Source: Thysanoteuthis rhombus (lineage: Eukaryota; Mollusca; Cephalopoda; Oegopsida; Thysanoteuthidae). From it: a stretch of DNA of 64,000 nt. Every line of letters starts with the position of its first letter. Within the stretch, counting starts at the first letter, position 1. The notes beneath the pieces were generated by a model, which worked only from the letters and a program-made list of their open reading frames with translations, had not been told where the DNA came from and searched no databases. Positions 3,233 through 62,937 of this stretch are shown here, piece after piece. A program made the position numbers and the translations under genes. The DNA lies in contig OY735209.1 in NCBI GenBank assembly GCA_963457665.1, positions 9,849,814-9,913,813 of the forward strand, in the 5' to 3' direction.

Positions 3233-3620
3233 GAAACTGTTAACAAAAACTGTCAAAATAGGTTTCTTCAGTTTTTGGGGTGGTCTGCATGTATGTATAT
3301 ATCACGCTTACAGGCTGTACCAATGGAGCTAGAGGCTTGAAATTTCAAACATCTACTCCTTATCATGAGAATAACCTTTCGTTTTTGGAGATCACCCCAC
3401 CCCTCAATGTGCTCACAGCGGAAGAGAGGCGTCAACTTGGGATGAATGGTTATGCCAAATTAATCTCTTTCTTTGTGTCATTCACTTTTTTTTTTTAATT
3501 GTCTTTTTTAGTGATCAGTGCCCAACAAAAGGTGAAAGAAGTAACTTATTTATTGATCATCCTACTTTTCAATTTTTCAATTGATCGCTCCTAACACAGC
3601 ATGCCACCAAAAGACGGTTT
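3233..3620 (-). repeat. family A MITE-like element
   Basis: This is one of about ten copies in the window. On the minus strand, family A begins with GGTCTGGTTAGTCACTCAAT and AGAAACCGTC. It then carries a GGCAGCAAGCTGTGTTGGGG block, a TTTTGTTGGGCAGTGATCAC block, an AGCCCTCTAGCTCCATTGG block and ends in TTGACAGTTTCTAA. The 5' outer ~20 bases are missing here and mariner sequence begins directly after. The ends AGAAACYGTC and GACAGTTTCT are inverted copies, suggesting a non-autonomous DNA transposon. No coding region was seen. Confidence 0.7.
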
Positions 3621-10999: not shown

Positions 11000-11208
11000 C
11001 AAGACCGCAGCATTGCAGCTACAGGTATTGTCCATCCGAGGGCTTCCACACAGTTTCCTCTCCCAATTTCCCTCACAAGGCTTGGTCGACCCGTGGCTGT
11101 GGTAAGGACACTTGCCAAAGGCACCCCCGTGTTAGAATTCGAATCCCACCGAAATTTAAATTCCACCATGATTCGAACCCTGGGCCTGCGACTCAGACCA
11201 CTCAGCCA
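11000..11208 (-). repeat. tRNA-derived SINE with intact A and B boxes
   Basis: On the minus strand the head at 11208-11170 reads TGGCTGAGTGGTCTGAGTCG then CAGGCCCAGGGTTCGAATC. This gives a good A box and a perfect GGTTCGAATC B box. A second GATTCGAATTC and a body with CCTTTGGCAAGTGTCCTTAC follow down to about 11000. The A-box word resembles serine or leucine tRNAs. The lack of a closing acceptor stem argues for a SINE rather than a working tRNA. Confidence 0.75.
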
Positions 11209-11379
11209 CACACACACACACATATATATGTGTGTATTCAGGGTTGAGCACTCTTTAAATGAGGTAACTCATCCATTGTAAGCATATCCAATGCTCTTCC
11301 ATAGGAATAGAGCACTCTGGTGGATGGGGATTTATGCGTAAATAAATATATCACTTAAATTCAGCCTTACTGACCGTCC

Positions 11380-11525
11380 AGTTCCGTAGCTCTGAGGTAG
11401 GATATCGGCCTCTGAAGCGAAGGTTTCAATCCTGCCTCGTGGTACTGGATGGGATAATGGAAAGTCTAAAGCCACACTGAAGAGATGTGATACATCGAAA
11501 CAGCTGTCTGTGGATGACACAATAT
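11380..11525 (+). repeat. tRNA-derived SINE carrying a hammerhead ribozyme
   Basis: The head has an A-box-like TAGCTCTGAGGTAGG at 11387-11401 and a B-box-like GGTTTCAATCC at 11422-11432, the arrangement of an internal Pol III promoter. The body then contains the hammerhead motif at 11472-11513 and passes into a (TA)n tract from 11528, which could be the element's tail. It sits beside three other SINE copies, all on the opposite strand. A Pol III transcript would include the ribozyme. Target-site duplications were not resolved. Confidence 0.7.
11472..11513 (+). ncRNA. type I hammerhead ribozyme candidate, complete core
   Basis: All conserved positions are present. Stem I is CCACA (11472-11476) with TGTGG (11509-11513), 5 perfect pairs. 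The core is CTGAAGA (11477-11483), where the fifth position is free to vary in the family. Stem II is GATGT (11484-11488) with ACATC (11492-11496) and a 3-base loop. GAA follows at 11497-11499. A very short stem III, ACA with TGT and a 2-base GC loop, spans 11500-11507. The cleavage base is C11508. Such short stem III forms are known from hammerheads in eukaryotic retroelements, including Penelope-like ones. Self-cleavage is inferred from the fold only. Confidence 0.75.
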
Positions 11526-11527
11526 AG

Positions 11528-11560
<33 letters not shown>

Positions 11561-11565
11561 ATACT
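11528..11565. repeat. (TA)n microsatellite, possible SINE tail
   Basis: Alternating TA with one break, directly after the hammerhead-bearing SINE body. Confidence 0.85.
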
Positions 11566-21039: not shown

Positions 21040-21460
21040 GTTTGTGACAAACATCTTTTGCCAGTATGCTATGGTGATCAATTAAAAGATAGGAAAAAGG
21101 GATGACCGATGGATATGTTGCTTCTGTTCCTATTTCGTTGGACAGTGATCACTGAAAAAAAAGTCTGAATTTTCAAAAGAAACAAGCAAGGTCACAAAGT
21201 AAGAGGTCAGTTTAGGATAAACTTACATGGCAGATTGTCCTCCCCCACCCACCTCCGCTAAAAAACAACTTATGGGGAAGAATTTTTTTTGTAGGCGTAA
21301 TGAGTAAATGTTTCAGTGTTCAGTCCTCTAGCCCCCTTGGTGCGGCCTGTACACGTGACATATACATACATAGCCAGCAAGCCAATCAGACCAACTTGAA
21401 AACTGAAGAAACCTATATTGAAAGTTTGGGTGACAGTTTTGTTTGACGGTTTCTAATACG
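21040..21460 (+). repeat. family A MITE-like element
   Basis: Family landmarks appear in order: CATCTTTTGCCAG, GTGATCAATTAAAAG, TTTCGTTGGACAGTGATCAC, TAAACTTACATGG, CAGTCCTCTAGC, CAATCAGACCAACTTG and AAAACTGAAGAAACCTAT. It ends in GTTTGACGGTTTCTAA. The 5' terminal ~25 bases are missing. Confidence 0.75.
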
Positions 21461-30652: not shown

Positions 30653-30935
30653 AAATTGTCGGTCAAAAGCGACCCTAAAACTGCCAATATAGATTTCTTC
30701 AATCTTTTTAGTTATTCCGGCTGACTGATTGGCTGCCTGGCTAGGTATCTACTTCATGCGTCATTAGAAACCAAAGCTGACAAGACAGGTTTCTTCAGTT
30801 TTCAAGTTGGTCCGGCTGTCTCGCTGGCTATGAATCGAGTGTGCAGGCCACCCCAATGGAGCTAAGGGACTGTAAATCTGAACATTCACTCCTTAACATG
30901 TCGGTTTCTATTTGGTGACTGACCAGGTCTCTTTT
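30653..30935 (-). repeat. family A, internally deleted copy
   Basis: The family A 3' end appears twice in antisense. GAAATTGTCGGTC to TTCTTCAATC is followed by GAAACCAAAGCTGACAAGAC to TTCTTCAGTTTTCAAGTTGG. The copy then jumps to the 5' terminal piece, CGGTTTCTATTTGGTGACTG then ACCAGGTCT. The middle of the element is missing. Confidence 0.65.
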
Positions 30936-37458: not shown

Positions 37459-37498
<40 letters not shown>

Positions 37499-37555
37499 CC
37501 AGAATAACTTGAAAACTGAGGGAACCTATGTTGACAGTTTTCGTTGATCGTCTCT
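37350..37555 (+). repeat. family A 3' half with expanded (GATA)n
   Basis: TTACATTGTAAATTGAACCT, then TTTTCTAGCTTCATCGGTGT, a (GATA)10 tract at 37459-37498, CAGAATAACTTGAAAACTGA and a 3' end GTTGACAGTTTTCGTTG. The GATA tract replaces the two GATA units found at this place in the 62.5 kb copy. Confidence 0.8.
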
Positions 37556-37882: not shown

Positions 37883-37997
37883 TCAGTGGCTGGTTGGCCT
37901 AGAGTGACCCAACTGTCAACGGCGAACCGAATTCATGTTCCAGCTGAGATAGTTTGTGATTACTTCGCAATAATTCCCTTAGGAAAGGTATGAATCC
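37883..37997 (+). repeat. tRNA-derived SINE, family S
   Basis: GGTTGGCCTAGAGTG (A-box-like), a decayed B box CGAATTCATGTTCC, then the shared body: AGCTGAGATAGTTTGTGA, TTCGCAATAATTCCCTTAGG and AAAGGTATGAATCC. Five copies of this body occur in the window. Confidence 0.7.
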
Positions 37998-38095
37998 ATA
38001 GATAGTCAGCCGGCAAGCCAGACAGGCTCATTTAAAAAATGAAGAAATCTATGATGACAGTTTTGGTGAGAGTTTTGATAGACAGTTTCTTGCTC
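37990..38095 (+). repeat. family A 3' fragment joined to the SINE
   Basis: CATAGATAGTCAGCCGGCAA, ATGAAGAAATCTATGATGAC and GATAGACAGTTTCTTGC follow the SINE body with no gap. One element therefore inserted next to or into the other. Confidence 0.65.
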
Positions 38096-39818: not shown

Positions 39819-40245
39819 TATGTATCTGTTCATCTATCAATCTCAATCTATTCATATCTATCTCCGTCTATTCATATTATCTATCTTATCAATCTATCTA
39901 CCTATCTCAGTCTATTCATATCTACACATCTATCTACCTTATCTATTTATCTATCTCAGTTTTTTCATATCTACACATCTATCTATCTCAGTCTTTTCAT
40001 ATCTACACATCTATCTATCTCAGTCTTTTTATATCTACACATCTATCTATCTCAGTCTTTTTATATCTACACATCTATCTATCTCAGTCTATTCATATCT
40101 ACACATCTATCTATCTACCTTATCTATTTATCTATCTATCTCAGTCTATTCATATCTACACATCTATCTACCTTATCTATTTATCTATCTATCTCAGTCT
40201 ATTCATATCTACACATCTATCTCAGTCTATTCATATATATCGATG
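39819..40245 (+). repeat. TATC-based minisatellite with higher-order unit
   Basis: About eight repeats of a unit of roughly 32-57 bases: CTCAGTCTWTTCATATCTAC, then ACATCTATC, then a variable (TATC)n. Length differences between units come mostly from the TATC part. A 145-codon frame runs through it, rich in Tyr, Ile, Leu and Ser, and is an artefact of the repeat. Confidence 0.9.
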
Positions 40246-43984: not shown

Positions 43985-44430
43985 CGAAACCGCCAAGAAA
44001 AACTGTCACAAAAACTGTCAACATATGTTTCTTCAGCTTTCAGTACGGTCTATCAGGCTGACTTCCTATGTATGAAGCGTTCAGGCCAAACTAAAGGAGC
44101 TAAAAGGCTGAAAATGTCAACATTTATTCCTTATTCTGAAAAAAGAGAGTTTGTTTTTCATCCCATCCACCTAAAAAGATTTTACTAGAGGTGGAGGATT
44201 TAAATTTGCAATGTAAAATTATGATGAATTGATCCCTTGGTTTGTTCACGCTTATTCTATTGAAATTCGGTCTTTTTTTCTCAGTGTCAAATGCTCAACA
44301 GTAAGTGAGAGAAAGTATCTTACTCATCTATCACCCCTTTACCATTCTTTAAATTGATCAGCCCCAACACAGCATTCTGCCAAGAGACCCTGGACAAACG
44401 ACGGTTTCTATTGAGAGACTAACCAGACCT
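43985..44430 (-). repeat. family A MITE-like element, nearly full length
   Basis: In antisense: CTGTCAACATATGTTTCTTC, GGAGCTAAAAGGCTGAAAAT, TTGCAATGTAAAATTATG, TCAACACAGCATTC-like words and finally CGACGGTTTCTATTGAGAGA then CTAACCAGACC. The outer 5' end is intact, so this copy and the 62.5 kb one define the family. Confidence 0.75.
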
Positions 44431-45489: not shown

Positions 45490-45630
45490 AATGAACATTT
45501 GTAGAAGGGAAGGCCATAGGCTCAGGGAGAATTGATCAAATTTTGATACGAATCCAGGATTGATCAAATTTTGGGACGGATCCAGAAACGATCAAATTTT
45601 GGGACGGATTCAGAATCGATCAAATTTTTT
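45490..45630 (+). repeat. family G fragment with a 33 bp minisatellite
   Basis: GAAGGGAAGGCCATAGGCTC then AGGGAGAATTGATCAAATTT matches the 1.46 kb copy. It is followed by four units of about 30-35 bases built on GATCAAATTTTGGGACGGAT and CCAGA. The minisatellite grew from the last segment of the family G repeat. Confidence 0.75.
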
Positions 45631-47960: not shown

Positions 47961-48138
47961 GGGCGGTTTGTAGGTGGCTGTTAGAAGAGAGGTTTTGAAG
48001 TAACGGAAGGGTTGCAGTGACCGCTTTCGTTTTATTCTAGAGATATTTCAATAATCTCTACGTTATCGACAGCCTGACATTTTCTATTAGTTCATCCGCG
48101 CTGTCAAAAATGACGGCATATATGGAATATATACATGT

Positions 48139-48345
48139 ACACATTGCAATTTATATATGCGGATAATGGAGATTTGCATTGCAGTAAGCTTGATGAATAA
48201 CCTTCCATACACATTGCATTTTATATCTGTAGATAATAAAGATTTGCATCGCAGTGGGATGGGAGAATAGCGTTCTTTACATATTGCATTTTATAGACGT
48301 GGATAATTGAAATTTGCTTTGCATAGTGCTTGGGGAATAGTTTTC
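48139..48345 (+). repeat. ~69 bp minisatellite, 3 units
   Basis: ACACATTGCAATTTATATAT to GATTTGCATTGCAGTAAG, then ACACATTGCATTTTATATCT to GATTTGCATCGCAGTGGG, then ACATATTGCATTTTATAGAC to AATTTGCTTTGCATAGTG. Unit starts are at about 48139, 48211 and 48279. Confidence 0.85.
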
Positions 48346-61737: not shown

Positions 61738-62190
61738 TTCTGGATAGTCACTCGATTAAAAACCGTCAGGAGACCAACATCTTTTGGCAGCCTGCCGTGT
61801 TGGAGGTGATAAATTTAAAAAATGGGGGGGAGGGTGTTCAATGGATAAGCGTTTGGATGGATCATATACAAGTCCAAATTAAAAAAAAAAAAAAGAAATA
61901 AAACAGATCAGAACGCTGCCAAGGGATCGTTTTAGCATAAACTTACATTGTAAATTAAACCCCAACCTAAAAAAAATTGTTTTGAGGGAGAATTAACCCC
62001 CCTCTAAATAACCCCTTATTTTCTGGACATGATAAGGAGTAGGTGTTGAAATATTCAGCCCTTCATCTTCATCGGTGAGTCCCATACGCGTGATAGATAG
62101 ATAGATAGATAGATAGTCAGAATAGCATAAAAATTGAAGTAACCCAAGTTGACAGTAAACGGTAGCAGTTTAGATGACGGTTAATTTTTA
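61738..62190 (+). repeat. family A MITE-like element with (GATA)n
   Basis: GATAGTCACTCGATTAAAAA, CCGTCAGGAGACCAACATC, TTTTGGCAGCCTGCCGTGTT, TAGCATAAACTTACATTGTA, GATAGATAGATAGATAGATA (62093-62117) and a 3' end with GATGACGGTTAA. Confidence 0.75.
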
Positions 62191-62481: not shown

Positions 62482-62937
62482 GTCTGGTTAGTCACTCAAT
62501 AGAAACCGTCCACGTGACTAACGTCCTTTGGCAGCAGGCTGTGTTGGGGATGATCGATTAAAAGTTGGTAAAAAAAAGGTGATTAATGAATAAGTAACTT
62601 CTCTCGCTTTTTGTTGGGCGGTGATCACTGAAAAAGCCTGAATCATTGAAAAAAAATTCTAACTAATGAGATCGTGGCCGGACACAAAATAAGTAAACAA
62701 TTTAGCATAAACTTACATCATAAATTGAACCTCCACCAAAAACCCATCATGGGGGATATTAAAATAAACCGTTTTTTTTTCTCTAGACATAATATGGAAT
62801 AAATGTTGAAATAATTCAGCCCTATAGCTCCATTGGAGCGCTACACCCGTACATAGATAGCCAGTCAGACCAAGTTGAAAAGTGGGGAATATTATTTTGA
62901 TGTTGACAGTTTTAGTTGACAGTTTCTAATAGTCTTG
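62482..62937 (+). repeat. family A MITE-like element, reference copy
   Basis: Both ends are clear: GTCTGGTTAGTCACTCAATA then GAAACCGTC at the left, TGTTGACAGTTTTAGTTGAC then AGTTTCTAA at the right. Internal blocks in order: GGCAGCAGGCTGTGTTGGGG, TTTTTGTTGGGCGGTGATCA, TAGCATAAACTTACATCATA, AGCCCTATAGCTCCATTGGA and CATAGATAGCCAGTCAGACC. At about 456 bp it is the most complete copy. Confidence 0.8.

Follow-up and report, generated by a model that had tools for sequence, protein, structure and literature searches.

The present analysis of a 64,000-nt stretch of squid DNA (hereafter, the window) points to a new retrozyme-like family, for which cleavage is predicted from the sequence motif. The element at 11235-11524 (plus strand) is probably one 5′-truncated unit of a non-autonomous family that belongs with the animal non-LTR retrozymes and whose units, of 313 nt, bear a type I hammerhead with a short stem III. 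This window copy, delimited by BLAST, covers unit positions 11 to 310 approximately and is 91% identical to the family consensus (BLAST, consensus against L001/L009).

The hammerhead motif that the first-pass annotation had proposed at 11472-11513 (plus strand) was recovered by direct reading and by a motif scan, with its full core and 5, 5 and 3 pairs in stems I, II and III. On this strand, stem I (CCACA, 11472-11476, with TGTGG, 11509-11513) encloses the core CTGAAGA (11477-11483), stem II (GATGT, 11484-11488, with ACATC, 11492-11496, and the loop GAT), the core GAA (11497-11499), stem III, which is the perfect 8-nt palindrome ACAGCTGT (11500-11507), and C17 (11508). The cut site derived from the motif is GTC^TGTGG, predicted between 11508 and 11509. 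In the RF00163 alignment, the features of a type I hammerhead are all present: CUGANGA, GAA, the A-U pair closing stem III, an NUH site and open ends at stem I. No second motif of the same kind was found by the scan on either strand of the 64-kb window, and the random expectation is 0.0007 per 64 kb (10 matches with stems of at least 5/5/3 in 919 Mb of order-1 sequence, both strands). The three pairs claimed for stem III are readable but leave a 2-nt loop; because ACAGCTGT is palindromic, a single molecule realistically forms only about two pairs around a 4-base loop. The same palindrome could also join two molecules, or two units, by base pairing. Furthermore, the RF00163 model has a stem III of four pairs without a loop, and the shape of the window motif is therefore usual for RF00163.

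The Rfam scores for the hammerhead in stretches of about 90 bases are suggestive but not decisive. RF00163, whose gathering threshold is 34 bits, matched the window copy with 22.0 bits (91-base search, E 0.0014 against all Rfam families) and copy L069 with 23.4 bits (about 90 bases, E 4.8e-4 against all Rfam families), so that the significant covariance-model match by which the first-pass annotation proposed to check its hammerhead was not obtained at Rfam thresholds. RAGATH-1 reached 18.4 bits (window copy) and 16.5 bits (L069) in these stretches against a threshold of 56.3 and, with 17 bits, was the sole hammerhead listed in a 1,001-base search, in which RF00163 was absent. No Rfam match at the gathering score was found in the 64-kb window, nor in 14 other copies; lines for miRNA, CRISPR and pestivirus families were far below their own thresholds and were set aside. 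The best structures predicted by RNAfold for the monomer (-11.3 kcal/mol for the window copy, -12.9 and -12.5 kcal/mol for two consensus forms) are not hammerheads and pair the CUG of the core with the CAG of stem III, whereas the hammerhead fold with a two-pair stem III is at -6.2, -6.2 and -5.8 kcal/mol, respectively. Since nearest-neighbour energies omit the non-standard pairs of the hammerhead core, an efficient one-molecule ribozyme is disfavoured by these values, yet possible.

The genome searched is the 2.73-Gb assembly of 514 contigs that contains the window. A search with 11380-11565 gave 2,223 first-look candidates, and the 40 that were scored (window included) align with the query over most or the whole of its length, with 90-100% identity. 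The strict pattern CTGANGAN{6,30}GAAACAGCTGTCTGTG has 8,329 matches genome-wide against none in the reversed control; other genomic copies retaining the hammerhead stems, expected by the first-pass annotation, are present. A relaxed core pattern without stem requirement has 16,468 matches against 464 in the reversed control, about seven of the 100 matches listed being judged unrelated by eye. These counts support the hammerhead-type motif as a feature of a dispersed family of short non-coding retroelements with thousands of copies. Searches of viral contigs and prokaryote genomes gave no match, one of the patterns being too narrow (GTGATAC was fixed, whereas most copies read GTAATAC); among animals, the search covered this one genome.

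The compensatory stem changes that had been proposed as a check occur in stem II, where an A-T/T-A switch is accompanied by almost no broken forms, while stems I and III are invariant between subfamilies. Among the 100 strict matches listed of 8,329, 96 strings have the standard length; in these, pair 2 of stem II is T-A in 48, A-T in 44, G-T in one and unpaired in three, with a mutual information of 0.85 bit, about nine times that of the next column pair. Across 110 aligned copies, the same pair is A-T in 65, T-A in 41, G-T in one and gapped in three. Consensuses of copies grouped by this pair differ in 14 of 309 compared columns (5/147 in the 5′ part, 6/85 in the tRNA-like part, 1/22 in the linker, 2/42 in the motif and 0/13 in the tail), i.e. 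in 12 columns besides the pair itself, whose 100%/100% split is by construction because the groups were defined on it. Clustering without the stem II rule placed 100 of the 110 copies in one cluster and six, all of the T-A form in their consensus, in another. Parsimony requires at least seven state changes for this pair on a weak tree (mean of 30 after shuffling), and we count the switch as one to a few events. Since the two differences in 42 motif positions are not fewer, in proportion, than the five in 147 of the 5′ part, the motif is not unusually conserved; its telling point is that its one change between subfamilies is compensated. This compensated pair cannot choose between the hammerhead and the competing fold, because stem II is common to both structures. 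Within single copies, decay affects the core as it does the flanks: in 29 copies found by the tRNA-like part alone, differences amount to 13/252 in the core, 32/283 in stem II (subfamily switch included) and 35/889 in the flank (part of which lay in the query), and an intact core is kept in 12 of 25 aligned copies from the set found in this way. Constraint is not visible there, as expected of dead copies.

The consensus unit has 313 nt and a GC content of 43%, and its longest stop-to-stop stretch is 86 aa when the unit is doubled; no longer frame, and hence no reverse transcriptase of its own such as Penelope-like elements have, was found there. It starts with AATGCTCCTC and continues with a 5′ part, about 150 nt long, that holds two related modules beginning with AATGCTCYTC, the tRNA-like stretch, a linker carrying GGTACTGGATGGGATAATGG, the hammerhead and the 3′ end GATGACACAATAAT, located 18 nt beyond the predicted cut site. 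The exact junction of one unit to the next occurs 576 times in the genome against none in the control. In L026, L028, L047, L053, L067, L090, L107 and L113, the next unit follows gaplessly after a single base, and the upstream unit of such gapless tandem loci is 5′-truncated. Tandem copies are a minority: among 70 sequential hammerhead sites of contig C1, a following unit is joined gaplessly in five and through a short AT-rich spacer in two, and a gapless preceding unit is found in one (L113). One dimer has its two hammerheads 313 nt apart (C1:6466360 and 6466673). Likeness between the units of seven dimers is clear for L053, partial for L047 and L107, and missing for L026, L067, L090 and L113.

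Other arrangements of neighbouring units were also observed. L043 is separated from its preceding unit by a TA tract, L042 and L043 (C1:2623363 and 2623652) being adjacent copies, at a distance of 289 nt, with an intervening microsatellite. Two exact unit junctions lie 310 nt apart at C2:17742387 and 17742697, which points to three units in a row, and L106 and L121 are older-looking tandems in which the gapless junction is replaced by about 20 nt of AT-rich spacer. The upstream units of L047, L130, L135, L141, L144, L157 and L168 read ...AAAGTC without the usual preceding AATGG; both units of L047 lack it, a hint of a dimer lineage spreading as a dimer.

The window copy lies between a CA/TA/TG microsatellite at its 5′ junction (11210-11234, plus strand, direct reading) and a (TA)n tract at its 3′ junction (about 11525-11563, plus strand). 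The tract is present as previously described, and we read it as the insertion target rather than as a tail, the alternative being a templated tail plus slippage. Among the 67 copies with a readable 5′ flank, 35 have (TA)≥5 within 30 nt (1.5% in the window background) and 44 some dinucleotide repeat; (TA)≥5 is also found in 53 of 70 3′ flanks (background of 2.2%), and 1,528 of 3,105 exact 3′ ends continue as ATATATA. The starts of 70 units are variable, 19 of them falling in positions 59-71 of the unit and 12 between -6 and 15. The unit often reads TATGC, TGC, CTC or TATTC at its start, next to a microsatellite of matching sequence, a pattern suggestive of joining by microhomology. Flanking words of at least 12 nt shared by both sides occur in five of 133 copies, one of them convincing (L062, 25 nt); the target-site duplications of tRNA-derived SINEs are thus rare here, and any lying inside (TA)n would escape notice.

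The window contains further repeats. Just upstream of the unit, a repeat-like stretch at 11100-11210, apparently a different short repeat, has tRNA-like words on the minus strand, namely two that resemble GGTTCGAAT, within GGTGGGATTCGAATTC and GGGTTCGAATC. Minisatellite-like arrays occupy 39896-40222 (period 96/32), 45528-45628 (period 28) and 48138-48323 (70 nt). A dispersed repeat with AACTTGAAAACTGAAGAAACCTAT...GACAGT (families D10/D17), whose copies are 60-86% alike, on both strands and often beside GATA repeats, is found at 3242-3292, 21361-21425, 30769-30819, 37474-37538, 37997-38061, 44007-44057, 62092-62156 and 62840-62904.

The 5′ ends of copies were read at the first 60 of 100 listed junction places (576 in total). 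Two start exactly at GTC^TGTGG (L132 and L185, L132 being the same insertion as L059) and L143 starts about 2 nt after it. By eye, about nine starts lie in the 21-nt stretch that precedes GGATG, which gives an expectation of about 0.4 for the exact cut site; at about 51 of the 60 places, the sequence continues into the preceding unit, small deletions being present in some. L054 was rejected as a start near the cut since it is a deleted upstream unit instead. 5′ ends are therefore at most weakly over-represented at the cut site and do not pile up there. Both sides of the predicted cut site are present in the copies extending to the 3′ end, which suits re-closed circles and uncut multimers equally well.

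The first-pass annotation had taken the element for a tRNA-promoter SINE, transcribed by Pol III into an RNA that cuts itself. According to this reading, Pol III would initiate immediately upstream of the A box and proceed beyond the hammerhead; we consider it improbable, even if the element is short, non-coding and dispersed and if, by eye, the consensus has words resembling an A box and a B box, separated by about 40 nt, as well as TCCAGT and ACTGGA, which can pair in the manner of an acceptor stem. The words are indeed there: in the window copy, the A-box-like TAGCTCTGAGGT lies at 11387-11398 and the B-box-like GGTTTCAATCC, correctly placed upstream of the motif by the first-pass annotation, at 11422-11432, 39 bases before the hammerhead (both on the plus strand). 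However, they are no better than chance, the best A/B-box score being equalled by 74 of 300 shuffles of the younger consensus, 187 of 300 of the older one and 182 of 300 of the window copy. RF00005 did not appear up to E 10 in either the window copy or L069, and ARAGORN found no tRNA. Moreover, the tRNA-like stretch is not a 5′ head with boxes but internal to the unit by about 150 nt. Of 70 copies, none has its start between unit positions 142 and 158, the place expected for the beginning of a Pol III transcript. Because 150 nt lie upstream, such a start would lose half of the unit at each round unless transcripts span head-to-tail units. The scarcity of flanking duplications also speaks against the reading as a tRNA-promoter SINE, which was not borne out.

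It is less improbable, but still unlikely in our opinion, that the element is SINE-like and that its hammerhead is a relic or inactive, inherited for example from a Penelope-like or retrozyme ancestor and without any role in its spread. The sub-threshold Rfam scores, the competing fold, the motif devoid of extra conservation, the retention of both sides of the cut site and the near absence of 5′ ends at this site would all suit such a relic; the sole subfamily difference inside the motif is, on the other hand, a compensated pair, and the head-to-tail units match the retrozyme life cycle. A chance resemblance, i.e. a hairpin with a lucky core, may be invoked since the competing hairpin uses the same letters, and the whole family counts as a single draw because all copies descend from one source. 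The random expectation per 64 kb and the E-values against all Rfam families nevertheless make it extremely improbable, as does the retrozyme-like anatomy of the same element. The retrozyme reading, which we favour with reasonable though not full confidence, has in its favour what was directly observed in the family: a motif improbable by chance, its copy number, the compensated pair, the 576 head-to-tail junctions and the TA flanks. The E-values of RF00163 in stretches of about 90 bases and the size, GC content and lack of long frames of the unit also count for it. Counting against it are the Rfam scores below threshold, the different minimum-energy fold, the unremarkable conservation of the motif, the two cut-site starts in 60 and the mixed likeness of units within dimers.

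In the retrozyme life cycle that we infer for this family, transcripts with at least two units would fold into hammerheads that probably act in pairs, held together by the palindromic stem III, and that would cut at GTC^TGTGG to release 313-nt units that a host ligase could close into circles. A partner reverse transcriptase, perhaps from a Penelope-like element, would copy the circular or head-to-tail RNA, beginning at AATAATTAAT, a stretch of the RNA capable of pairing with the (TA)n DNA of a nicked target. Such priming would result in the fixed 3′ junction, the variable 5′ truncation and the partial upstream units. Target-primed reverse transcription by a partner element and closure by a host ligase are terms of the retrozyme papers and of general knowledge. 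We propose tentatively, and with clearly less confidence than the assignment to retrozymes, that the family displays how animal retrozymes enter genomes: target-primed reverse transcription of circular or multimeric 313-nt RNA would start from one fixed point near AATAATTAAT, about 18 nt past the cut, copying past one turn would give the gapless partial tandems, and the hammerhead would make the circle. If true, this would supply the information about partner and target that the retrozyme review calls missing. Should the ribozyme be functional, a single genome would contain some 16,000 copies with a hammerhead from this retrozyme-like family, and the insertion junctions of the family would record the start of reverse transcription and the target used. 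The fixed (TA)n junction makes circle-templated insertion directly testable and is the part most worth following.

A literature search joining hammerhead ribozymes with cephalopods found nothing, and the texts retrieved on hammerheads, SINEs and octopus describe no such element in the portions available; 235 hammerhead 1 matches are given for the giant squid genome (PMC6962438). Animal non-LTR retrozymes are described as having 170-400 nt, a GC content below 50%, type I hammerheads, tandem copies and circular RNA (PMC7229834), and SINEs and Pol III are absent from the main text of that paper. According to section 9 of PMC7761336, metazoan retrozymes can be regarded as SINEs, seemingly without promoters and without any motif pointing to a partner element; Penelope-like elements are proposed in the same paper as their movers. 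In the retrozyme model of that section, circular templates should give cDNAs longer than one unit, and head-to-tail units therefore support the retrozyme reading.

Compared with known systems, the family resembles the satellite or retrozyme repeats of newt and axolotl (PMC7229834) by a very short palindromic stem III and a unit length close to their 330 nt or so, their hammerheads working better as dimers; these repeats are in tandem, with circular RNA and canonical tertiary contacts, whereas the present copies are mostly dispersed and such contacts are not evident. It shares with the minimal hammerheads of Penelope-like elements (PMC7761336, PMC6155905) a short type I motif, a weak stem III, a tandem hammerhead region and a proposed action as dimer, a likeness by description, but the 313-nt unit, unlike these elements, encodes no protein. 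Sm-alpha of Schistosoma, the earlier example of a SINE-like element with a hammerhead (PMC8490949, PMC6155905), is likewise a short dispersed element with a type I hammerhead; it is likened here by description and not by sequence, and its hammerhead is reported as active with known rates whereas the present one is predicted. The closest parallel is with metazoan non-LTR retrozymes (PMC7229834, PMC7761336). The present family differs from these by its mostly dispersed, 5′-truncated single units in (TA)n instead of longer arrays, by its fixed 3′ junction and by a hammerhead below the Rfam threshold, and is known from genomic DNA alone. It is like them by its non-coding unit in the same size and GC range, its type I hammerhead with a weak stem III, its head-to-tail arrangement and its thousands of copies. 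Overall, a head-to-tail 313-nt unit in (TA)n tracts is, by analogy, the anatomy of animal non-LTR retrozymes, and those retrozyme features that can be tested by such a comparison fit this family, with tandem copies as a minority.
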